Shown here: one piece after another, positions 4,149 to 19,995 of the stretch
Layout: each line of letters opens with the position of its first letter
Numbering within the stretch: the stretch's first letter is position 1
From: a virus
Virus record (IMG/VR): IMGVR_UViG_3300034104_000205
Location: 1-21,217 of that record
Reading direction: 5' to 3' (one strand)
DNA: 21,217 nt
Position numbers and translations under genes: made by a program
Notes under the pieces: generated by a model
Told to the model about the DNA's origin: nothing
The model's database searches: none
What the model saw: only the letters and a program-made list of their open reading frames with translations

Positions 4149-4670
4149 ATGGCTCTCCCGAATAAAGTGTTGCCCGGTTTTAGTGCTGCTTTGTGGGCAC
4201 AGTCCGGCGCTACCCCGACTCCCTTCTCGACCGCTAACCTCGCCACTTGGACTGCCCAAGTGCAAGACATCGTCGGCACCACTGCCGGTGGTCTTGGCAC
4301 CGAGGGTCTGCAACTGAACGTTGAGGCTGTCCCGGCCTTCGGTCAAGATGATGCAATGGCTAACTTCTCGGTTGCCGGTTCGCGTCAGTCTGACAAGATT
4401 CCGACCCAATCTGCCCCGACCTCTCTGACGGTCACCGCAGCTTGGAACCCCTCGGATGCCGGTCTGCTGCTGATGCGTGCTGACGCCGCCAACGGCACGA
4501 TTGACCGCACCTTCGTGGTGTCGGCCTATGACGGCACGAACGTGGTTGCCTATGCTTTCAACGGTCGCGTGAGTCAGTTCCAAATTGACGCACAACCCGG
4601 CGCGGAAGCTAAGTGTGTCTTCACGATCCACCCGCGTGGCAATCAGTACGGTTGGTCAAACAACACCTAA
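4149..4670 (+). CDS. Major tail tube protein
   Basis: The 173-aa protein is a good match in size and character for a siphovirus tail tube subunit. It is rich in Ala, Thr and Gly, has many short beta strands, and carries the LTVTAAWNPSDAGLLLMRAD stretch and a final strand pair (YAFNGRVSQFQIDAQPG, KCVFTIHPRGNQYGW). Subunits of this fold stack in hexameric rings around the tape measure. An unusually strong ribosome site (GGAAAGGAAAG at about 4136-4146) precedes the ATG, as expected for a product needed in many copies. It sits after the tail terminator and before the chaperone genes. No Ig-like decoration domain is visible. Confidence 0.85.
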   Translation: MALPNKVLPGFSAALWAQSGATPTPFSTANLATWTAQVQDIVGTTAGGLGTEGLQLNVEAVPAFGQDDAMANFSVAGSRQSDKIPTQSAPTSLTVTAAWNPSDAGLLLMRADAANGTIDRTFVVSAYDGTNVVAYAFNGRVSQFQIDAQPGAEAKCVFTIHPRGNQYGWSNNT

Positions 4671-4904: not shown

Positions 4905-5468
4905 ATGGCAGGCTTCACATTCAAAGTTGAAGGTCTGTCTGATGTGATCGGCGCTTTTAATGAGCTTGCCGAAGAGATTGGCGACAAGAAAGCACGAAGC
5001 CGGGTGCTAATACCGGCCATGCGTAAAGCGATGCAGCCGGTCTTGGCAGACGCCAAAGCTACGGCTCCGGTCGATACGGGTGCGCTTGCCAAGCATCTTC
5101 AGGTCGAGGCGCGTAGGCCAAACCGCAGGGATCAACGCTCAAAGTACGTCGATCCTAACGATGCGGTGATTGCGGCGGTCACGACCAAGGCATTCCCCAA
5201 GAAGCTGCGGGCGCAGTTCAGGGAACAAAACAAATCGCTTTTGGAAAGCAATCCATCGGCTTACCAAAAGAAGTTCAAGAAGTTCGCCATCTCGCAGGGC
5301 TTCCCCTACGATGCTCGTGCGGTGGCGCAAGAATTTGGATCGGCTAGGAACCCTGCTCACCCGTTCCTACGACCCGCGTTAGAAAATAACGCAAGCCAAG
5401 TTGCCAACAACTTGGGCAAGACATTGGGTGAACAAATCACAAGATACCGTACGAGGACGAAAAGATGA
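4905..5468 (+). CDS. HK97 gp10-family tail/neck protein
   Basis: The 187-aa product shows the signature of the HK97 gp10 family (PF04883). An N-terminal FKVEGLSDVIGAFNELAEEI is followed by APVDTGALAKHL (VDTGAL near residues 56-61) and EFGSARNPAHPFLRPAL (from about 143). Family members are tail completion or neck proteins in HK97-type phages. An inserted basic segment (about residues 68-130, many Lys/Arg) makes it longer than many relatives. The family usually lies between head closure and tail terminator genes. Here it follows the tail tube gene, which is an unusual order. The stop overlaps the chaperone gene start (ATGA), so the two are likely coupled. Confidence 0.85.
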   Translation: MAGFTFKVEGLSDVIGAFNELAEEIGDKKARSRVLIPAMRKAMQPVLADAKATAPVDTGALAKHLQVEARRPNRRDQRSKYVDPNDAVIAAVTTKAFPKKLRAQFREQNKSLLESNPSAYQKKFKKFAISQGFPYDARAVAQEFGSARNPAHPFLRPALENNASQVANNLGKTLGEQITRYRTRTKR

Positions 5469-5944
5469 GCAAGATTGCAGCCGCGCTTGGTGAGTCATAC
5501 CAAGCCAAGCGGGAAGAACTCCGCATTCGCAAGTTTGAACTTGGAGGCCACACCTTCAAGGTCAGGGTTCCGGTCGTCGCTGAGACTGATGCCATTTTCA
5601 AGCGCATCAACGAACCCGACGAAGCCAAGATTCAAGAACTCTTTGAAAAGCTGTCAAAGCCAATTCTTGAATTTAAGGACGACGCCGAAAAGACCGGCTT
5701 TGAATTCACCGAGGACGACATTCTGATTGAGGGCAAATCGACCCGGCAGACTGTCCGCACGCAAGTGATGACGCAAACGCGCATCACCGAATTCATCAAG
5801 CTGCTTGTCCCTGTAGAGGGCACGATGGCAGACATCACCTACGAGGACATCGAAGCGGAATTCCCGATGTCCACGCAGCTTGCCCTAATTGAGAAGATTG
5901 CCGAAGTCATCTCCCCGAACTACCGGGAATCGCGGGGAAACTGA
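5465..5944 (+). CDS. Tail assembly chaperone (lambda gpG-like)
   Basis: A 159-aa acidic protein (many Glu/Asp) starts in an ATGA overlap with the preceding gene and lies directly before the tape measure region, the standard place for the G chaperone. FELGGHTFKVRVPVVAETDAIF is a typical start for this group, which binds tape measure protein and recruits tube subunits. It ends ...RESRGN with TGA at 5942-5944, and the last two codons plus the preceding base form a GGGAAAC slippery heptamer. Most ribosomes should stop here, and a minority should shift into the next frame to make the longer GT form. Function follows from position and the recoding signal more than from sequence similarity. Confidence 0.85.
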   Translation: MSKIAAALGESYQAKREELRIRKFELGGHTFKVRVPVVAETDAIFKRINEPDEAKIQELFEKLSKPILEFKDDAEKTGFEFTEDDILIEGKSTRQTVRTQVMTQTRITEFIKLLVPVEGTMADITYEDIEAEFPMSTQLALIEKIAEVISPNYRESRGN

Positions 5945-6015
5945 CACGCTCGTTGAAGAAACAGGTAGAGGCGGCAATGATCTTCAACGGGCACACACAA
6001 GACTCAATTGCTGCC
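5935..6015 (+). promoter_or_regulatory. Programmed -1 ribosomal frameshift signal (GGGAAAC plus stem / possible pseudoknot)
   Basis: In the zero frame the sequence reads G GGA AAC (5935-5941), the canonical X XXY YYZ slip site, followed at once by TGA. After six bases a stem forms: 5948-5959 (GCUCGUUGAAGA) pairs with 5981-5992 (UCUUCAACGGGC), 12 pairs with one G-U. In addition loop bases 5970-5978 (GGCGGCAAU) can pair with 5997 plus downstream bases 6007-6015 (AUUGCUGCC); the nine pairs are those of 5970-5978 with 6007-6015, one being G-U. This gives an H-type pseudoknot. Slip site, spacer and stem are seen. Activity and the second helix are inference. Confidence 0.85.
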
Positions 6016-6300
6016 ATTGACTACGATTTAATGGGCGATATACAGACGATGTATGCCGACGGGATGCTTGGCAATCACAACGTCATCTACCTGTTGGGGT
6101 CGCTTGTCTCGGGCGTCTTCAACTACATGAGATCATCAAATGCGCCGCCGTTTTCGCTTGAGAAAGTGCTTGGTCCCGCATACGATTACATCTATCCCCC
6201 GCTAACCGAGGAACAGAAGAAGGCTCAAGCCAACGAGCAGCTTCTGACCTTTATGACGATGGCACCGGGCTTCAATAAAGAAAGGTTCAAACGTGGCTAA
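5941..6300 (+). CDS. Frameshift extension of tail assembly chaperone (T domain of gpGT)
   Basis: This frame is -1 relative to the G gene and has no convincing start. The first candidate is TTG 5953, which has no well-spaced ribosome site and lies inside the predicted stem. The frame is open from 5893, so a -1 slip at GGGAAAC continues with CTG at 5941 and adds 119 residues (LTRSLKKQVEAAMIFNGHTQ onward), giving a fusion of about 278 aa. The segment is helical with a Pro-rich PPLTEEQKKAQANEQ end. In lambda the T part binds tail tube protein while G binds the tape measure. The end overlaps the tape measure start by eight bases. Confidence 0.85.
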   Translation: MTRSLKKQVEAAMIFNGHTQDSIAAIDYDLMGDIQTMYADGMLGNHNVIYLLGSLVSGVFNYMRSSNAPPFSLEKVLGPAYDYIYPPLTEEQKKAQANEQLLTFMTMAPGFNKERFKRG

Positions 6301-8251
6301 CATGATTGCACGCTTGGGCGTACTGCTCGGGCTGAACACCGCCGAATTCAATCAGGGTCTTGCTCAATCGGGCAAGAAGATGGAAGAGTTTGTCGGCAAG
6401 GCAAAAGGCATGGCAACAGTGGCAGCAGGCGCATTCGCGGCCATGACTGTCAAAGCAACCATGTTCGCTGATGGAGTTGCCGATATTGCGGCGGCAAATG
6501 ATGTAGCGATTGATACTGTCGTCAAGCTACAAAACTCGCTTGAGAGGGCGGGGGGCGAATTCAATAATGCGGGCAAGATGTTTGCCTCGTTCAATAACTA
6601 TGTGGACAAGGCCGCAGAGGGATCGTTTGAGGCGCAACGCAACTTTGCCAAGATGGGCATTTCCCTCAAAGACCTAGAGAGTCTGACGGGTGAGCAGCTT
6701 TTCTTACAAACCATTCAAGGCATCGCCAACATTGAAGACCCGTTGACGCGCTCCGCGAAAGCAATGGAAATGTTAGGCAAGGCGGCCAAAGGGGTCGATC
6801 TTGCAACGATGGCCAAAGAGATGCAAAGCATGGAGTCGGTCACGGATCGACAGGCCAATGCGATCAAACTGCTTGCTGACTTTTATGGCAGTTTGGAAAA
6901 GGCAAGTCGCAATCTAACCTTGAGCTTCATCGACTTTTTGGAGCCTGCGCTTCGCAAGATCAATTCAGCATTGGACAAGATGAGCGAACACGCCAAGTCA
7001 GGCACGCTCGTCCAAGGCTTTTTCTCGACTCTTGCCGACGATTTCAAGACTGCGCGTATTCAAGCAACGCTTGAGGAAATTGAAAGATTAAACGCCAAGA
7101 TTGCCGACCCAAATGTCGGACAGTTTTGGAAGTCGGGATACAAGAAAGAACTGGCAGACGCCATCAAGCTGCTAGACGAACTTCGTGGGCCGCAAAAGCA
7201 AGCAACGCAGGCCGATGTGCGAAGGGTCGAACCCGTTGAACCGGCAATGACCGCTGAAGGCAAGACGGGCGGCAAGGTCAGGGATATTAAAAAGGGAGTT
7301 GACCCGGAAGAAGAAAAGCGCAAGAAAGAAGAAGAACGCGCAGAGTTGGAGCGTCGTCGTCGCTTTGTGGATGGTATGCGCCGTGCAGACGAAGAATTTG
7401 TCGCACGAGAGCAAGCGTCAATTGCCTACGCAAAGTACGTTGATCAAATCGTCAAGGGCGACGAGGCACAAAATCGAGCCATTACTACCGAAGAAAGACT
7501 GCTTCATCTTGAGTCGCAAAGGAAAGACATCAAGGAATACAACTATCAGTACCTTCGGTCTTTCATTAATCTGACCGCACAACAAGCCGAGGAACAAGAA
7601 AAACTCAGACAAGCCGAGTTGCTTCCCGCAGACCGAGAAGCGGCGCAAGAGCGTCTTAATCAAATCTATGAACGCAGGCTTAACCTCATCAAACAAATTC
7701 GAGATGCAGAGGAAAAAGCCAATCAAGACATCGGCGTGTTTGAAGGCTTAAAAAAGGCTGCGGGCGACTTCTTCAAAGAATTCCCGAGGGACATGGAAAC
7801 CGGCGCAATGATGTTCGGCTCGCTCATGGGCAACATGACCCGTGCGCTTGACGACTTCGTGCGTACCGGCAAGCTCAACTTCAAAGAGTTTGCCCGCAGC
7901 ATCATCCTTGACATGATTGCCATTCAACTGAAGGCTTCGGCCATGAAGTTGTTGTCAAGCGTCTTCGGCTTCAATCTCCCTGCGCGGGCGATGGGCGGTC
8001 CTGTAACGGGCAACTCTGCCTACCTTGTCGGTGAGCGTGGGCCTGAACTGTTCGTGCCGCGCATGAGTGGCACCATCATCCCTAACCACAATCTGCAAAG
8101 CGCAGGCGGTGGCACCACCGTGACCAACAACTACATCAATGCGATTGATGTGAAGTCGTTTGAAGAACGCATCATGGGCAGTTCAAACGCAGTGTGGGCG
8201 GCTAACCTGTACGCTCAGAAACGACTGCCATTGGGCGCAGGGAGAATGTAA
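6293..8251 (+). CDS. Tail tape measure protein
   Basis: The 652-aa protein spans the tail lumen and sets tail length. It has an Ala-rich helical N-terminal region (QSGKKMEEFVGKAKGMATVA and a hydrophobic stretch), a long charged coiled-coil centre (about residues 330-490, rich in EEEKRKKEEERAELERRRR-type sequence), and a C-terminal part typical of lambda-type tape measures (GGPVTGNSAYLVGERGPELF near 567-586). The start is GTG 6293, with AAAGG seven bases upstream. ATG 6302 would be too far from it. Using the roughly 1.5 angstrom per residue rule for helical tape measures, the tail would be near 100 nm. That figure is inference. No lytic transglycosylase or peptidase domain is visible. Confidence 0.92.
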   Translation: MANMIARLGVLLGLNTAEFNQGLAQSGKKMEEFVGKAKGMATVAAGAFAAMTVKATMFADGVADIAAANDVAIDTVVKLQNSLERAGGEFNNAGKMFASFNNYVDKAAEGSFEAQRNFAKMGISLKDLESLTGEQLFLQTIQGIANIEDPLTRSAKAMEMLGKAAKGVDLATMAKEMQSMESVTDRQANAIKLLADFYGSLEKASRNLTLSFIDFLEPALRKINSALDKMSEHAKSGTLVQGFFSTLADDFKTARIQATLEEIERLNAKIADPNVGQFWKSGYKKELADAIKLLDELRGPQKQATQADVRRVEPVEPAMTAEGKTGGKVRDIKKGVDPEEEKRKKEEERAELERRRRFVDGMRRADEEFVAREQASIAYAKYVDQIVKGDEAQNRAITTEERLLHLESQRKDIKEYNYQYLRSFINLTAQQAEEQEKLRQAELLPADREAAQERLNQIYERRLNLIKQIRDAEEKANQDIGVFEGLKKAAGDFFKEFPRDMETGAMMFGSLMGNMTRALDDFVRTGKLNFKEFARSIILDMIAIQLKASAMKLLSSVFGFNLPARAMGGPVTGNSAYLVGERGPELFVPRMSGTIIPNHNLQSAGGGTTVTNNYINAIDVKSFEERIMGSSNAVWAANLYAQKRLPLGAGRM

Positions 8252-8902: not shown

Positions 8903-9552
8903 CCACCACGATGACCGCGCTTAATAGCGCAAACATCCGACACGCCGAATTCGTCAAGCTGTCAGTTGGCAATCCCGCATCGCCAACCGTCTACACCTTC
9001 TGCAACGCTGCTGCTCCCGTGACGGTCAGCGGTATCACCTTTAGTTCGCTCGGGGCGCTGTTGGCTGTCGGTGAAGTGCAGCGGGATGTCAAGGCAACCT
9101 CGTTTGATATGTCGATCTCTTTGACCGGCATTGATCCGAACTACGTTGCTCTGATTCTCTCAAGCGACATCAAGGGCAGCACCGTAGAGGTTTGGCGCGG
9201 CTTCCTTGACTCTGACAATCAGATCATCACCACGCCGACGCTTCAATTCTTCAAGCGGTGGCAAGGCATCATCAACAACGTCAACATTACAGAAGACTTC
9301 AACGAGCAGATGCGGCAGCGCGTGGCGACTTGCAACATCACTTGCTCAAGCATGAGGCGGGTGCTAGAAAACCGCCTTGCAGGCATCAAGACCAACAAAA
9401 CCATTTGGCAGTCGATCTATCCCGGCGATACCTCCATGAGCCGAGTCGATGCCATCTCGAACACCTACTTTGACTTCGGCGGCAAGCCCAACACGGGCAG
9501 CATTTCAGAGCCGGGTGGCGGGCAAGAAATACCGGAGACACAACAAAATTGA
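8899..9552 (+). CDS. Minor tail protein, probable baseplate hub (DUF2163/gpL-like)
   Basis: The 217-aa product begins in an ATGA overlap. It contains ITFSSLGALLAVGEVQRDVK, then SFDMSISLTGIDPNYVALIL and a strand-rich VEVWRGFLDSDNQII section describing a hub-like beta domain, followed by FKRWQGIINNVNITED. The C-terminal part (RVLENRLAGIKTNKTIWQS, then YPGDTSMSRVDAISNTYFDF) resembles the end of phage proteins annotated as DUF2163 or minor tail proteins, in which a Cys-containing segment precedes it (CNITCSSM here). In lambda the equivalent gpL carries cysteines that bind an Fe-S cluster. Here only the pair in CNITC is evident, so that function is not claimed. The final residues are Gly/Gln-rich. 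Confidence 0.65.
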   Translation: MTTTMTALNSANIRHAEFVKLSVGNPASPTVYTFCNAAAPVTVSGITFSSLGALLAVGEVQRDVKATSFDMSISLTGIDPNYVALILSSDIKGSTVEVWRGFLDSDNQIITTPTLQFFKRWQGIINNVNITEDFNEQMRQRVATCNITCSSMRRVLENRLAGIKTNKTIWQSIYPGDTSMSRVDAISNTYFDFGGKPNTGSISEPGGGQEIPETQQN

Positions 9553-9995
9553 TCCGCGAAGCATCCAAGTTTGATCTAGACGCTTGCGTTGAGATGATGC
9601 GTAAGTACGCATCAGAGTCGCCTATCTTCAAACTTCGGCAAGCTGCGTTTCACGACAACTATTATGTAAGGCACTTCCTGTTTAGTTTGATCTGCGGTCG
9701 CGGGTTCATCTTTGTTGACAGTCAATATCGCGGAATGATTGCCGCCATCGTCACGCCAAACATTTGGTGCCCCGGCGTGCATGAGGTTAAAGAGTTGGCG
9801 TGGTGGGTTGACCCCGAGCACCGAGATGGAACAATCGGCGGCAAGTTGTTTGTTGCCTATAAGGTCAAGGCCGAAAAGCTGATCAAGGAAGGTCGGGCGC
9901 AGGTTATGAGCGTGTCGCTTATGGCTAACAGCCCATCAATTGATTTAGAGGGTCGCGGGTTCAAGCGGATTGAATCCACCTTCTGCAAGGAATAG
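9549..9995 (+). CDS. GNAT-family N-acetyltransferase in the tail module
   Basis: The 148-aa protein has the GNAT shape: an N-terminal helix pair (ASKFDLDACVEMMRKYASES), a beta strand (GRGFIFVDS), a central strand and acetyl-CoA loop (VHEVKELAWWVDPEHRDGTI, residues about 78-96) leading into a helix, and a C-terminal GRGFKRIESTF. The loop reads R92-D-G-T-I-G97-G, where the usual R-x-x-G-x-G has Thr in place of the first Gly. It starts at TTG 9549, overlapping the previous stop as TTGA, with GGAGA ten bases upstream. The substrate is unknown. Acetylation of a tail or host surface protein, or a non-catalytic role, are both possible. Its position just before the J-like gene is where NlpC-type peptidases often occur. 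Confidence 0.82.
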   Translation: MIREASKFDLDACVEMMRKYASESPIFKLRQAAFHDNYYVRHFLFSLICGRGFIFVDSQYRGMIAAIVTPNIWCPGVHEVKELAWWVDPEHRDGTIGGKLFVAYKVKAEKLIKEGRAQVMSVSLMANSPSIDLEGRGFKRIESTFCKE

Positions 9996-13842: not shown

Positions 13843-14331
13843 ATAGCGATCTTCAACAAGAATACGCTTGCCCAAGTCAGCGGGTTCGACAATCCAATTC
13901 TTGCCGGTGAACTGGTTTGGAACCAAAAGACCTATTGGAATCTTTCGTTCACCAATTGCGCTACCGGCCTGCCGATTCCTCTGACCGGCGCAACGCTTGA
14001 CGCTCAGATCGTCCGGCGACAAGTCAGCAACATCGTAGACACCCGCAACGGTCTGACATTCGACATTGCGGATTACACGCCGACCCCCACGCCGGTCAAC
14101 CTCACGATAAGCAACCGCAATGACGCGGCAGGCACGTTCACGCTTGTCATTGACGATTCCACTTGGTCGCTGATCAACAGCGATCCTCAGCTAGAAATCA
14201 ACGCTCAGGATTGCGTGGGTTTCTCAGGGCGCATCAAGGTTTCCTTCCCCGCTAGTGGCAGCACGCCGCAGGATGACGCAATCATCTTCCTGCTGTTCCT
14301 TGTTCGCTCCGACGGGGTGGTGGTGGTATGA
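13756..14331 (+). CDS. BppU-like baseplate/fibre N-terminal domain protein (start uncertain)
   Basis: The conserved part reads [20 protein letters not shown] followed by [14 protein letters not shown] and [13 protein letters not shown], a beta-rich pattern like the N-terminal domain of phage baseplate upper proteins (BppU), which anchors fibres to the tail tip. Hydrophobic strands close the protein. The start is a problem: GTG 13756 is the longest canonical choice but its first 29 residues look non-coding and lie in a hairpin. TTG 13819 has AGGG at a long distance. The natural N-terminus by similarity would be at 13843, where the codon is ATA and the ribosome site AGGCAGGG is well placed. Up to 191 aa. 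The stop overlaps the collagen-like gene (ATGA), indicating coupled production of anchor and fibre. Confidence 0.65.
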
Positions 14332-16643
14332 GCAACATCAAGGTTGTCGTCCAAGACGGTAATAACGTCAATCTTCAGGTCACTCCCACGCCTGATGTAA
14401 GCGTCAGGCTTGACCGCAGCGTTTCCGGGGCTACAGGACCGACCGGGCCTTCGGGTACTGCCGGACCCACTGGGCCTTCAGGTACTGCCGGACCCACGGG
14501 TGCCACGGGCGCTCCCGGTCCTGCGGGTGGGCCTACTGGTCCCACGGGCGCTACGGGCAATACCGGCGCGATAGGCCCGACTGGCGATGCAGGTCCAACC
14601 GGTCCGACGGGCAGCGCAGGCGCGACAGGCCCAACCGGCGATATGGGGCCAACCGGCGCGACAGGCCCAACCGGTGCACAAGGCGGGCAAGGAACAATTG
14701 GCCCGACCGGTCCGCAGGGCGTTCAGGGCATCCAAGGCATTCAAGGCGATCATGGGCCTACCGGACCGCAAGGCCCGACCGGACCACAAGGTGTGGCAGG
14801 CCCGACCGGCGCGATTGGCCCAACCGGAGATATTGGACCTACTGGACCGACGGGTACACAGGGTGCTCAAGGCAATATCGGCCCGACCGGCCCGCAGGGA
14901 AACCAAGGCATTCAAGGTGACCACGGCCCAACAGGACCACAGGGCGTTACAGGCCCGACCGGAGCGCAGGGAAACGTAGGCGCAACCGGCCCAACTGGAG
15001 CTCAAGGGGACACTGGACCTACGGGACCGCAGGGCGTACAAGGTATTCAGGGTGACCAAGGCGTACCCGGACCGACCGGCCCGATTGGACCTACAGGTTC
15101 TCAAGGCAACGTAGGCCCGACTGGTCCTACAGGGGATGCCTCAACCGTTCCCGGACCCACTGGTCCAACAGGCCCGCAAGGTATCCAAGGCGACCACGGC
15201 CCGACCGGCCCTCAAGGTGTACAGGGCGATCAGGGCTTTGTTGGGCCTACCGGCCCTCAAGGCTCGACAGGCCCGACTGGCCCGCAGGGCAACCCCGGCG
15301 CGGGCGGTACTGTCGCGTATTGGGGATCGTTTTGGTCTACGCAGGATCAAGTCGCGGCGGCTCCCGATACGGCTTACTCAATCACACTCAACAACACCGA
15401 TCCTGATTCGAACGGGATTAGCGTTGTCTCAAACAGCCGCGTCACGTTCTCGCAGGCGGGAACCTACAGCTTGACGTTCTCAATTCAGTTCGTCAACACC
15501 GACACGCAAATTCACGATGTGAACGTGTGGCTGCGGAAGAACAACGCGGGAAGCTCGGGCGACATTCCCGATTCCGATACTCGTCTGAGTATTCAGCAGC
15601 GTCACGGCAACGTGGACGGGTATGGTCTGATGACTGTCAACTTCGTGCTGAAGTTGGCAACGGCAGACTACATCGAAATGATTTGGTCAACGACAAATAC
15701 GACCACATCAATTCAGACCGTCCCGCCGGGAACAACTCCGGTTTCACCGCAGATTCCCGGCGTTATCTTCACGGCCACCCAAGTCACCTACACGCAGAAT
15801 GGTCCGACTGGCGCTGCCGGTCCTACGGGTCCACAGGGATTTGTTGGTCCCACTGGTCCGCAAGGCCCACAAGGCATCCAAGGCACTCCCGGCGATACGG
15901 GCGCAACCGGCCCAACGGGAGCACAAGGAAACACCGGCCCGACCGGACCTACGGGTGATGCTTCTACCGTTCCCGGCCCGACTGGTCCTACCGGCCCGAC
16001 TGGCGCACAAGGGATTCAGGGCGATCACGGCCCAACCGGCCCCCAAGGCCCGCAAGGCATCCAAGGCGATCAGGGTCCACAAGGGAACACTGGGCCTACT
16101 GGGGCGCAGGGTGCTGTCGGCCCGACCGGGCCTACCGGGGCGCAAGGAATCCAAGGTGACACCGGCCCAACGGGACCGCAAGGACCGCAGGGCAATCAGG
16201 GCATCCAAGGCGACACCGGACCTACCGGACCCACGGGCGCACAAGGCATCCAAGGCATCGCAGGGCCAACCGGCCCCACCGGACCCACGGGCGCTATCGG
16301 ACCCACTGGGCCTACGGGCGCACAGGGCATTCAGGGCGACGCGGGACCGACCGGCCCTCAAGGCGTGCAGGGCATTCAGGGTGTTCCGGGCAATACCGGA
16401 CCCACCGGACCGACAGGAGATGCCTCAACCGTTCCGGGACCAACAGGCCCAACAGGTGCAATTGGCCCGACCGGTCCTGCCGGAAGCGGTGGCAGCGGTG
16501 GGCCTATCTTGGAAAACAACATCACGATCAGCAGCAACTACACGCTGACCGCAGGCAAAAATGGTTTTAGTGTCGGCCCTGTAACCGTGGCAACGGGTGT
16601 GTCGGTTACTGTGCCAAGTGGTCAACGATGGGTTGTGATCTGA
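14328..16643 (+). CDS. Collagen-like tail fibre protein with internal C1q-like domain
   Basis: The 771-aa protein has a 33-residue N-terminal piece, a long Gly-X-Y collagen segment from residue 34 to about 325 (mostly GPTGPTG, GPQG, GIQGDHG units), a globular beta domain (about 327-491, containing [28 protein letters not shown] and NVWLRKNN), then a second collagen segment (492 to about 725) and a short C-terminal beta cap ([17 protein letters not shown] to PSGQRWVVI). The middle domain has the jelly-roll feel of C1q/TNF trimerisation domains. It is likely a trimeric fibre, and probably binds the host or extends the reach of the tail. Three copies of a [14 protein letters not shown] unit interrupt the strict Gly-X-Y phase. 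ATGA overlap with the BppU-like gene. Confidence 0.88.
15135..16438 (+). repeat. Three dispersed 20-bp repeats in the collagen gene
   Basis: Near-identical 20-base stretches encoding GDASTVPG lie at 15135-15154, 15957-15976 and 16419-16438 (first and third differ at one position, the second at about three). They are embedded in highly repetitive Gly-Pro-Thr coding DNA and could serve as recombination points. Confidence 0.75.
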
Positions 16644-16651
16644 GGTAAGAC

Positions 16652-17806
16652 ATGGCAATCACCATAAACGGCGGCTCAGGCAACAACTCCATCAGCGGCA
16701 CTTCAGCCGGTGCGAGTGTTGATAGCACTGGTGCCGTGACTATTCCTGTTGGCACGACTGCTCAACGCCCTGCAAGCCCGACTGCGGGGATGATTCGTCA
16801 AAACTCAACCACCGGATTGCCGGAATGGTGGGATTCTTTGGGCAATCAATGGGTGATATTTAGCACCCTTCCTTCATACTCCGCAGCGGTGCTTTTAATT
16901 GGTGGCGGCGCGGGCGGCGGTGGTGGAACTGGAGCCGGTGGCGGTGGTGCCGGAGGACTTTTATATTACGGCAGCGAAACCCCAAAAACCCCTAATGGAA
17001 GTGCGTTGTCATTTACCCCCGGAACTTCATATTCAATCGTTATTGGTGGTGGCGGCGCAGGCATTAGCGGTTCGGGAGCATCAAATTCGGGGTCAAATTC
17101 AACACTTACTGCGTTTTCGTTAACTTCAATTGGCGGTGGATACGCTACATCAGGCAACAATACTGCTCCGGGTGGTGGTGGTGGCTCAGGAGGTGGTGCA
17201 ACTGGTAATAGCGGCGGCACCGGACCCGGTGGTGGCGGTGGTGCCGGTACGGTTGGACAAGGAAATGCCGGTGGCAATGGTTATCATATTGGTGGCGTAA
17301 AAGTTGACGGTGGCGGTGGTGGTGGCGCGGGCGCGGTTGGAACTAGTGCCGATAACCTATCTTTTCCAAATGGTGTTTATCCGAATGGGGGAGTCGGGCT
17401 TGCATATTCCATAACAGGCACATCAGTCTTTTTTGCGGGCGGTGGCGGCGGCGGTGGTCACTTTGATGGTTCTAAAGCTGGAAATGGTGGCAACGGCGGC
17501 GGTGGCGGCGGTGGTGGAAATAATAATAACGGCACTGGCGGTTCAGGATTGAATTCCGGTGGTAATGGAACCACTGCATCAACCAATGCGCTAGGTGGAA
17601 ATGGCGGCGCAAATACTGGCGGCGGTGCCGGAGGTGGTGGCGGCACAACATCCGGCACGGGCGGCAATGGCGGTTCGGGTGTTTGCATCATTTCTTATGC
17701 AAGCCCTACGCAACGCGGAACCGGCGGCACCGTTACTTCGTACACCAGTGGCGGCACAACCTACTGGGTTCACAGATTTAATTCATCGGGGACATTCACA
17801 GCATGA
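16652..17806 (+). CDS. Glycine-rich tail adhesin/fibre protein 1
   Basis: The 384-aa protein begins with a short phage tail module (INGGSGNNSISGTSAGASVD, then VGTTAQRPASPTAGMIRQNS and PEWWDSLGNQW) seen at the start of many fibre proteins. The central two thirds are dense glycine runs (GGGAGGGGGTGAGGGGAGGL and similar, residues about 88-340), ending in SGVCIISYASPTQRGTGG and a conserved SGGTTYWVHRFNSSGTFTA. Such polyglycine-rich segments are known to pack as polyglycine-II sandwiches in the receptor-binding gp38 adhesin of phage S16, so a receptor-binding tip is a reasonable inference. GAGGT lies six bases before the ATG. It is the first of three paralogues in tandem. Confidence 0.8.
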   Translation: MAITINGGSGNNSISGTSAGASVDSTGAVTIPVGTTAQRPASPTAGMIRQNSTTGLPEWWDSLGNQWVIFSTLPSYSAAVLLIGGGAGGGGGTGAGGGGAGGLLYYGSETPKTPNGSALSFTPGTSYSIVIGGGGAGISGSGASNSGSNSTLTAFSLTSIGGGYATSGNNTAPGGGGGSGGGATGNSGGTGPGGGGGAGTVGQGNAGGNGYHIGGVKVDGGGGGGAGAVGTSADNLSFPNGVYPNGGVGLAYSITGTSVFFAGGGGGGGHFDGSKAGNGGNGGGGGGGGNNNNGTGGSGLNSGGNGTTASTNALGGNGGANTGGGAGGGGGTTSGTGGNGGSGVCIISYASPTQRGTGGTVTSYTSGGTTYWVHRFNSSGTFTA

Positions 17807-18924
17807 GTGAAATCCGCGCAGGCACTACGACCACCACTGCACTGGTCACAACCGGCGATACGACCGGGAATCTTGTGCTGACCCCGGATTCGGGTTTCGC
17901 TCAGGTAAACGCAACTGGTGCATTGGGCATTCCGGTTGGGACTACAGCGCAACGACCGGCAAGCCCGACTGCGGGCATGATTCGTCAAAACAGCACAACG
18001 GGACAACCTGAGTGGTGGAGTCCTTTGAGTAATGCGTGGGTTGCATTTAACGCAACACCCACATACCAAGTTTCATACCTAATTATTGCGGGTGGCGCAT
18101 CAGGCGGGGCAGTTTGTGGCGGCGGTGGTGGCGCGGGAGGATTACTTGCTAATACTTCTACGGTAAATCCGCTTACTGCATATCCTATTGTAGTCGGTGC
18201 CGGGGGCGCCGCTGTCACTGTTACAAATGTTCCAACTGGATCAAAAGGCAACAACGGGTCAAATTCTTCCTTTAACTCAAATACTGCAATAGGTGGTGGC
18301 GCCGGTGGCGCATATTCGGGTTCATCTAATCCATCACAAAATAATGGTACTGCCGGTGGTTCAGGCGGCGGTGGTGCAGGAACTGAGGGTACTGGTTTTT
18401 ATCCCGGTGGCGCAGGGACTTCGGGCCAAGGAAACACTGGAGGCAGTGGTTACATGGTCCAAGGCGAATGGCTTGTTGGGGGCGGCGGTGGTGGCGCAGG
18501 CAGTGTTGGTGCAAATGCCTCAACTGGTGGCGTGCCGGGTAATGGCGGCAATGGAACGTCCTCAAGTATTACTGGCTCTTCTGTAACTTATGCCGGTGGC
18601 GGCGGTGGCGGTGGTCATGTATCAAGTCCTGCGGGTGCAAGCTCATTTGGATCGGGTGGTACAGGTGGAGGTGGTAGAGGAGGCTCCGGTACTGTTACCA
18701 ATGGCACATCAGCAACCGTCAATACTGGCAGCGGCGGCGGTGCGGCCGGTTATCCCGCGCCCGGCTTGACTTATATTTCCGGCGCGGGCGGCTCGGGGGT
18801 TGTCATCATTTCTTACGCCAGTCCTACTCAAATAGGCACAGGCGGCACAGTAACTTCCTACACCTCCGGTGGCACTACCTACTGGGTTCACACCTTCACC
18901 TCTAGCGGAACCTTCACGGCCTAA
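17803..18924 (+). CDS. Glycine-rich tail adhesin/fibre protein 2
   Basis: The 373-aa paralogue starts in an ATGA overlap with the previous gene. The N-terminal module differs at first (IRAGTTTTTALVTTGDTTG, LTPDSGFAQVNATGALGIP) and then shares VGTTAQRPASPTAGMIRQNS and PEWWSPLSNAWV almost exactly with copy 1. The glycine-rich centre (about residues 100-335) has a different pattern of insertions, including YMVQGEWLVGGGGGGAGSVG. The end (VVIISYASPTQIGTGGTVTS, SGGTTYWVHTFTSSGTFTA) again matches copy 1. The conserved ends and variable middle point to a shared mount with different binding surfaces. A polyglycine adhesin role is inference. Confidence 0.8.
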   Translation: MSEIRAGTTTTTALVTTGDTTGNLVLTPDSGFAQVNATGALGIPVGTTAQRPASPTAGMIRQNSTTGQPEWWSPLSNAWVAFNATPTYQVSYLIIAGGASGGAVCGGGGGAGGLLANTSTVNPLTAYPIVVGAGGAAVTVTNVPTGSKGNNGSNSSFNSNTAIGGGAGGAYSGSSNPSQNNGTAGGSGGGGAGTEGTGFYPGGAGTSGQGNTGGSGYMVQGEWLVGGGGGGAGSVGANASTGGVPGNGGNGTSSSITGSSVTYAGGGGGGGHVSSPAGASSFGSGGTGGGGRGGSGTVTNGTSATVNTGSGGGAAGYPAPGLTYISGAGGSGVVIISYASPTQIGTGGTVTSYTSGGTTYWVHTFTSSGTFTA

Positions 18925-18936
18925 AAGGACAACAAG

Positions 18937-19995
18937 ATGCCATCAATCATCAAAGCAGACGACGGCGCTGTTTCCGGCATTTCAGGTATCACAAGCACTG
19001 CTGACACTAGCGGCATTCTTGAGTTGACTGCCACGAACAACATAGTTCGTCAGAATGTGACTGGAGCATCTGGTCTTGCTGTTGGTACTACAGCACAACG
19101 ACCTGCGTTGCCTTCTAATGGGGATACTCGCTATAACACTTCCACAAATGTAATGGAGGTTTACATCCTCGGAGCTTGGTTAACGCTAGCTACTCTCAAC
19201 TATTCTCTTGATTATCTTGTGGTTGCTGGCGGTGGCGGTTCTTCTGCTGGCGGTGGCGGGGCTGGTGGATATATTGTCGGTTCAATTAGTAATGTTTCTT
19301 CAGGGACTGCCTATTCAATCACTGTGGGTGCTGGCGGCGCCGGATCAACGAACACAAGTAACGGTGGTGCAAACGGTACTAATGGCTCTAATTCAACCGG
19401 CTTCTCTCAAACGGCTACAGGCGGCGGCGGGGGAGGTAAATGGAATAATCCGGGATCAAGTGGTGGTTCTGGTGGCGGCGCTGGAAATCGAGGTAGTAGT
19501 TCTGGGGGTTCTGGAACAGCAGGGCAAGGAAATGCTGGTGGAGCTTGTGGCGGCGAGGATATATCCGATGCTGGCGGTGGCGGTGGCGGCGCGGGTGCGG
19601 CAGGGCAAACAGGATCAAATGGAAATGCTCGCGGCGGCAATGGTGGTGCAGGGTTGAACTGGCAATCTCTTGGGACTTTTTATGCCGGTGGCGGTGGCGG
19701 CGGTGGTAGAAATCCCGGAGCAGCTAATTTATCTTCCGGTGGAGCAGGCGGGGGAGGCACCGGCGGCAATGGCACAAACGGGACGGCGACTGCCGGAACT
19801 GCCAATACAGGAGGAGGAGGTGGTGGTAGTGGCTATCAGGAATCTGGTGACAACTATTGGAATGGAACCAATGGCGGTTCTGGAATTGTGATTGTTCGTT
19901 ATCTCGGGACTCAACGCGGCACAGGCGGCACCGTTACCACTACAGGTGGTTACACCTATCACACCTTCACTTCTTCCGGCACATTCACTGCATAA
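18937..19995 (+). CDS. Glycine-rich tail adhesin/fibre protein 3
   Basis: The 352-aa third paralogue follows after 12 bases with AAGGA before its ATG. The N-terminus (IKADDGAVSGISGITSTADT) is like the opening of copy 2 in layout, and GLAVGTTAQRPALPSNGDTR replaces the TAGMIRQNS version. The glycine-rich core (about residues 97-320) includes GGGGGGKWNNPGSSGGSGGG and a Cys-containing GNAGGACGGEDISDAGGGGG. The end IVIVRYLGTQRGTGGTVTTT and HTFTSSGTFTA is a variant of the same C-terminal motif. It is the most divergent of the three and its codons look richer in A/T at the third position. Likely another adhesin or fibre tip subunit. Confidence 0.78.
   Translation: MPSIIKADDGAVSGISGITSTADTSGILELTATNNIVRQNVTGASGLAVGTTAQRPALPSNGDTRYNTSTNVMEVYILGAWLTLATLNYSLDYLVVAGGGGSSAGGGGAGGYIVGSISNVSSGTAYSITVGAGGAGSTNTSNGGANGTNGSNSTGFSQTATGGGGGGKWNNPGSSGGSGGGAGNRGSSSGGSGTAGQGNAGGACGGEDISDAGGGGGGAGAAGQTGSNGNARGGNGGAGLNWQSLGTFYAGGGGGGGRNPGAANLSSGGAGGGGTGGNGTNGTATAGTANTGGGGGGSGYQESGDNYWNGTNGGSGIVIVRYLGTQRGTGGTVTTTGGYTYHTFTSSGTFTA

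Follow-up and report, generated by a model that had tools for sequence, protein, structure and literature searches.

A very probable programmed −1 ribosomal frameshift, with a covarying downstream stem, at the predicted tail assembly chaperone genes of a mostly uncultured phage group

The window we analyzed, the whole 21,217-nucleotide stretch of IMG/VR virus record IMGVR_UViG_3300034104_000205, very probably makes two tail assembly chaperones by a programmed −1 ribosomal frameshift of the phage lambda G/GT type. The case is a comparative one, built on the relation between the two frames, the slip motif, a downstream stem and the lack of a conserved start signal for the second frame, T. Most ribosomes would read G and stop at the TGA at 5942. 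A few, paused by a stem 6 nt downstream, would slip back one base on G_GGA_AAC, with the tRNAs on GGA and AAC re-pairing with GGG and AAA, and would continue as ...SRGN-LTRSLKK... through T to position 6297. As happens in lambda, G and the longer G–T would go on to load tail tube protein onto the product of the next gene, the tape measure protein. The slippage itself, its rate, the tandem slip and the chaperone roles are the parts we infer. Bacterial ribosomes tolerate AAC-to-AAA re-pairing less readily (excerpts of PMC4066793), and the frameshift rate may therefore be low. Such a frameshift would explain how a second tail chaperone arises in a large, mostly uncultured phage group, and would mean that the gene call needs correcting in relatives like Methylophilaceae phage P19250A (KX815270). 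An earlier note, made from the sequence of the window by itself, had read the locus in this way and thought the case unusually complete. The comparative checks support that reading, in a wider form, and the description is fair.

Coordinates of the features at and around the proposed frameshift (window numbering)
Feature	Position	Strand	Basis
G, tail assembly chaperone (predicted), zero-frame product	5465–5944	+	159 aa; ORF listing
Slip site G_GGA_AAC	5935–5941	+	read from sequence
Zero-frame stop adjoining slip site (TGA)	5942–5944	+	read from sequence
T, −1 frame extension reached by frameshift (proposed)	5941–6300	+	119 aa; ORF and comparison
5' arm of stimulatory stem (putative)	5948–5959	+	folding and covariation
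3' arm of stimulatory stem (putative)	5981–5992	+	folding and covariation
Possible SD-like upstream stimulator, CGGGAA in window	5924–5929	+	RGGA throughout Asn clade
Internal ATG in T frame, rival start	5977–5979	+	GAGG at 5968–5971
Tail tape measure protein gene, downstream	6293–8251	+	PF09718, E 1.6e-11; phrog_1538, E 8.9e-15
Major tail protein-like gene, upstream	4149–4670	+	phrog_158, E 4.8e-05; PF08813, E 0.034, below its cut-off

The G frame runs out as ...CGG GGA AAC TGA, so that the heptamer sits in the G_GGA_AAC register with the stop directly after it, just as the earlier note had it. The T frame is likewise open for the 119 codons claimed (5941–6297, with its stop at 6298–6300) and overlaps the start of the tape measure ORF. 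Two small genes lie between the major tail protein-like gene and G; the tape measure gene comes next after G/T, and the window thus carries two overlapping frames directly upstream of it. P19250A shows the same order of G, T and tape measure gene, and the second frame is −1 in all 190 distinct junctions of relatives. Searched at gathering thresholds, Rfam gave no match anywhere in the window, and a search of the window for tRNA genes found none.

Relatives came from IMG/VR scans, GTDB genomes and phage records (one record from each phage-record scan). The IMG/VR scans kept 28 of 28 relatives and then the best 80 of 221, 325, 587, 373 and at least 578. With the GTDB genome and phage records, these lists gave 414 loci including the window, of which 412 have both frames and reduce to 190 distinct junctions; we give counts as distinct junctions because the loci overlap heavily between scans. 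The 28 near relatives, all from IMG/VR, are 77–100% identical, and the farther ones split into two clades, Asn and Lys, named for the last codon of G. Counts of slip site, stop, stem and ATG refer to 148 distinct 85-base junctions. The window's own copy (L029) is excluded from both the 190 and the 148, L028 and L109 were dropped from the junction count because one or both frames are missing, and L356 is anchored 3 bases upstream of its stop. L142, the best T match of which lies elsewhere on its contig, is left out of several counts; its own junction is also −1. The main tree has 146 rows (two of the 148 were dropped), and a separate tree has 115 of 155 junctions, with copies of a junction merged and short or broken rows taken out. 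These are quick trees with many weak inner branches, and changes on them are counted without direction. L278, excluded from the 148, has an in-frame stop within G, an otherwise intact frame and the junction GGGAAAC TGA, which is either an error or a real truncation. The single relative among GTDB genomes, L270, lies on a 5.2-kb contig from a Crocinitomicaceae MAG and reads GGGAAAC TAA at its junction. It may be a stray phage contig, and no host follows from one such relative alone.

What rises above the routine here is the clean covariation of the stem and a switch in the slip site. The two arms of the stem (GCTCGTTGAAGA and TCTTCAACGGGC) form 12 pairs, one of them G.U, around a 21-nt loop. 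The 6-nt spacer from the slip site falls, as the earlier note had pointed out, within the 5–9-nt range. Folding the 57 nt after the slip site gives −18.6 kcal/mol and z −4.29, with none of 200 shuffles as good. A longer stretch of 89 nt fails to beat its shuffles (z −1.24, 24/200 as good) because another hairpin, 5970–5977 with 6008–6015 in the centroid, competes with the stem. That rival hairpin is not kept in relatives (49–93% paired per column, 147 rows), and a pseudoknot with the same pairing, suggested by the 89-nt fold, was rejected on these grounds.

Third codon positions face each other in the stem, so synonymous changes test the pairing, and double changes at synonymous sites are indeed seen. 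Of the 148 rows, 142 have standard pairing throughout pairs 1 to 9 and 113 throughout all 12; the upper end is looser, with pair 11 formed in 125. Pair 2, which joins wobble position to wobble position, is paired in every one of the 148 rows, as CG in 136, TA in 6, GC in 3 and AT in 3. Pair 5 is GC in 79, AT in 66, GT in 2 and AC in 1, and pair 8 is AT in 84, GC in 63 and AC in 1. The earlier note had proposed looking for covariation in homologous phages, and here it is strong: phylogenetically independent pairs (same–opposite–unchanged) score 6–0–0, 11–0–2 and 9–0–0 (sign test p 0.031, 0.001 and 0.004), and six out-of-register controls at wobble sites (G/C versus A/T) show no significant association (median p 0.25 to 1). 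Sliding the partner arm by one to three columns takes paired cells from 97.8% down to 29–57% (113 rows). For the covariation score, the paired cells and the double-change cells of these 113 rows, the observed value lies above all 500 shuffles. Two of the five covariation measures stay within the shuffles: pairs with a double change (136/500 at or above the observed value) and further pair types (500/500). Synonymous ratios of the stem codons in the Asn clade (74 loci) range from 0.18 to 1.07 and are not uniformly low, as expected if these codons change in pairs.

The heptamer by itself says little. GGGAAAC occurs four times in the window, near the 3.47 expected from shuffles, and a bare count therefore means little. 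Register is more telling: G_GGA_AAC is the only slip-register X_XXY_YYZ within the G ORF, against a background of 15 in 6734 codon positions across the 22 listed genes of the window. The heptamer and its stop are kept in all 27 near relatives that reach the site (the 28th, L028, ends before it), and across relatives the slip site stays near the 3' end of G. Over the 74 Asn-clade loci, the slip codons GGA and AAC have a synonymous ratio of 0.0, the lowest of 214 columns; the final codon of T, lying within the overlap with the tape measure gene, has this value too. The expectation of a conserved heptamer, then, held for the near relatives; the exact word is not universal. In the wider set, the slip words are G_GGA_AAC, G_GGA_AAT, A_AAA_AAC or A_AAR, and the sister (Lys) clade, P19250A included, has mostly NTC followed by AAAG, which is to say A_AAG without an XXX triplet. 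The earlier note had counted retention of both frames with loss of the heptamer against its reading, and taken literally that is what the sister clade shows. The frameshift reading survives in wider form because the replacement, A_AAG, is a known −1 motif and lies at an equal distance from the same stem.

The switch can be followed in the last codon of G, which is Asn in 79 and Lys in 69 of the 148 junctions. An XXX triplet precedes A_AA in 79 of 79 Asn-clade junctions, as GGG in 74 (one of these GGGAAAT) and AAA in five. Only three of the 69 Lys-clade junctions have one, GGGAAAG once (L175) and TTTAAAA twice; the others have GTC, CTC, TTC, TGC, GGA, CGA or AGA, then AAAG or AAAA. Across both clades, A_AAN lies directly 5' of the stop in 147 of 148 distinct 85-mers. 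The 146-row tree gives the triplet three changes within the Asn clade and 15 within the Lys clade. The three Asn-clade changes are all swaps between GGG and AAA, made by all three bases together and bringing a Gly/Lys change with them, so it is slipperiness that is kept and not the residue. Lys-clade changes fall 14 times at position −7, three times at −6 and five times at −5. To say that the triplet drifts freely in this clade would be too strong, given how seldom −6 and −5 change; UCA precedes AAR in 68 of 74 Lys-clade loci, and that codon shows no synonymous change, so the triplet there is not free either. Published tRNA behavior would predict this pattern: tRNA-Lys can slip alone at A_AAG, the E. 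coli tRNA-Asn slips in tandem only, and the 5' codon matters for A_AAG slippage (passages of PMC5009743), and among tetramers in E. coli, A_AAG is the best by a wide margin (passages of PMC4066793). We regard the fit as suggestive and not as many times independent, since the tree has Asn and Lys separated by one change only; the rule for XXX rests on that one split and on behavior inside each clade.

In 147 of the 148 junctions the slip codon is immediately followed by a stop (TAA, TGA or TAG). On the tree, this stop triplet undergoes 17 changes within the Asn clade and five within the Lys clade. The only exception is L356, with AAAG TTA TAG, where the stop comes one codon later and the 6-nt spacer is kept. 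Distance to the stop is also a predictor used by PRFect (PMC10885494, in the portion available). A tentative and, on balance, doubtful reading takes the family as a natural experiment in slip mechanism, in which stem, 6-nt spacer and abutting stop stay fixed and the slipping tRNA has changed once. Taken as one package, this reading would have the Asn type slipping in tandem, with XXX obligatory and an upstream RGGA helping, and the Lys type slipping with a single tRNA at A_AAG after a mostly UCA codon, with XXX unneeded. The stop in the A site might then do more than end G, letting the P-site tRNA slip while it awaits termination. Whatever its fate, the family offers natural variants for testing under which conditions −1 frameshifting in bacteria depends on tandem slippage, on an upstream Shine–Dalgarno (SD) element or on an adjacent stop.

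That upstream RGGA arises from codon −6, the third base of which is G in 79 of 79 Asn-clade rows, with no changes on the tree against 10 amino-acid changes, making it the most constant of 24 comparable columns in that clade. It is possibly a Shine–Dalgarno-like stimulator as in dnaX. In the Lys clade, the same base is G in only 26 of 67 rows, and a universal upstream SD was rejected; the element is kept in the Asn clade only.

Could T be a protein in its own right, started at the internal ATG or by re-initiation after the G stop, with the slip site incidental? The earlier note had held that T has no good start of its own, which is wrong for the window: the ATG at 5977 is in the −1 frame, has GAGG 5 nt upstream and lies 33 nt beyond the G stop. 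An ATG stands at this place in 135 of the 148 junctions, and the P19250A record annotates T from it as a hypothetical gene of its own (L030:4504–4812). We nonetheless consider a separate T very improbable. An SD-like 4-mer accompanies the ATG in only 10 of those 135, and the other 13 junctions have a Leu codon there (one is TTG, itself a possible start). Eleven of 154 junctions have no ATG in the T frame before the FNGH motif. Counting ATG, GTG and TTG, six of the 154 have no start between the stop upstream of T and FNGH (L164, L166, L168, L252 and L257 in the Lys clade, L186 in the Asn clade), which means that T cannot in general be reached through a separate common start. The conserved independent start that the earlier note had set against frameshifting was thus not found, and a separate T would leave the kept slip motif, the abutting stop and the covarying stem unexplained. 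For P19250A, the comparison suggests that T is the end of a G–T fusion rather than an independent gene. A mixed arrangement, in which frameshifting gives G–T and the internal ATG also gives free T in some phages, is unlikely too, if clearly the less unlikely of the two; GAGG and ATG are present in the window's own subclade, and with the SD-like element confined to 10 of 135 rows, free T would be at most a local extra.

Two further alternatives accept the change of frame or the stem and assign them other causes. The stem may be kept for mRNA processing or for control of the ATG that lies inside its loop, leaving the slip site alone to drive frameshifting; covariation by itself is silent on role. 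Against this, which we think improbable, the 6-nt distance to the conserved slip motif is constant in both clades, and relatives that have lost the ATG (L103, L186) still keep the stem. RNA polymerase slippage on a homopolymer run, in place of ribosomal slippage, is the least credible of the readings we weighed. Runs of six or seven A occur in a few relatives, yet no more than GGGGAAAC is present in the window, many relatives read CAAAG, a long run is absent, and a downstream stem at a fixed 6 nt plays no role in that model. Programmed ribosomal frameshifting remains, by a wide measure, the reading we prefer.

For the chaperone identity of G and T, gene order is firmer ground than any match of fold. 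Window G reaches no Pfam family above cut-off and no PHROGs family, and no named chaperone family in either collection gives G or T a useful match; of the family members aligned, 25 in all, one hits phrog_344 (tail assembly chaperone), weakly, at E 0.083. Against PDB sequences G found nothing, its best hit being xylose isomerase at E 0.95. The AlphaFold model of G (25-row alignment, pLDDT 86) has as its first match the HK97 tail assembly chaperone 2OB9 (Z 6.4, rmsd 3.6, 101/107 residues), where a Z below 8 may be background. 2OB9 leads 28 chains with Z of at least 2 and is tied with 5IR0, of unknown function, at Z 6.0. Foldseek places it at E 0.74, behind a metal regulator. Among viral models, G matches three uncharacterized phage proteins at E < 0.001 and tail assembly chaperone entries only at E 0.08 and worse. 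The T model is of low confidence (pTM 0.41), and its good matches are uncharacterized phage proteins only; a match to a "Minor tail T domain" (E 0.94) was set aside and is not evidence.

The lambda G/GT slip site is G_GGA_AAG, one base different from that of the window, and relative L175 has GGGAAAG itself. Frameshifted tail chaperones are widely conserved, and in lambda as in the window the tape measure gene is preceded by a −1 T extension that starts close to the end of G (passages of PMC5009743). Unlike lambda, the window has Asn (AAC) and not Lys as the last codon, a stop that touches the slip site and a covarying 12-bp stem at 6 nt, and its chaperones share no sequence family with those of lambda that Pfam or PHROGs can detect. 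The G/GT arrangement was, as the earlier note acknowledged, known already, and so was this very heptamer in phage tail chaperones (PMC3556154 and PMC5009743, in the parts available). Caulobacter phages Colossus and phiCbK have GGGAAAC and AAAAAAC, respectively, in their tape measure chaperones, two heptamers identical to those of this family in the same role; they are other phages, and the accessible part of PMC3556154 reports no stem or covariation. The three heptamers of a system with archaeal hosts (PMC5009743, in part) all occur within this phage family; that system differs from the sister clade, where A_AAG without XXX is in use as well. The A_AAG tetranucleotide is a bacterial frameshift motif known from IS elements (excerpts of PMC4066793 and PMC5009743). 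Followed by a downstream structure, it is what the sister clade, the P19250A type, has, and it is not the window's own motif. P19250A is 46.5% identical to the window in G and 50.9% in T and has the same stem and spacer, but differs in its junction, GTCAAAG TAG, and in that its G/T homologue is annotated hypothetical. The available portion of its paper (PMC7678222) discusses neither the stem nor the Asn/Lys switch. Among published titles and abstracts, with subscription journals mostly outside reach, we found none on the stem or the Asn/Lys switch of this family.

A few other features of the window deserve mention. The genes at 185–1528 and 1571–2650 are adjacent major head protein-like paralogues, 38% identical (E 1e-74); the corresponding places in P19250A are taken by a capsid gene and a hypothetical one. 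An acetyltransferase-like gene (9549–9995, phrog_1249) lies within the tail module. A collagen-like repeat gene (14328–16643) has two more slip-register GGGAAAC words, at 14897 and 14969, which are probably incidental, since a stop ends the −1 frame 7 and 28 codons away from the slip word. Beyond it stand three tandem glycine-rich genes (16652–17806, 17803–18924 and 18937–19995) with, by eye, similar starts and ends, the first of which matches phrog_2295.
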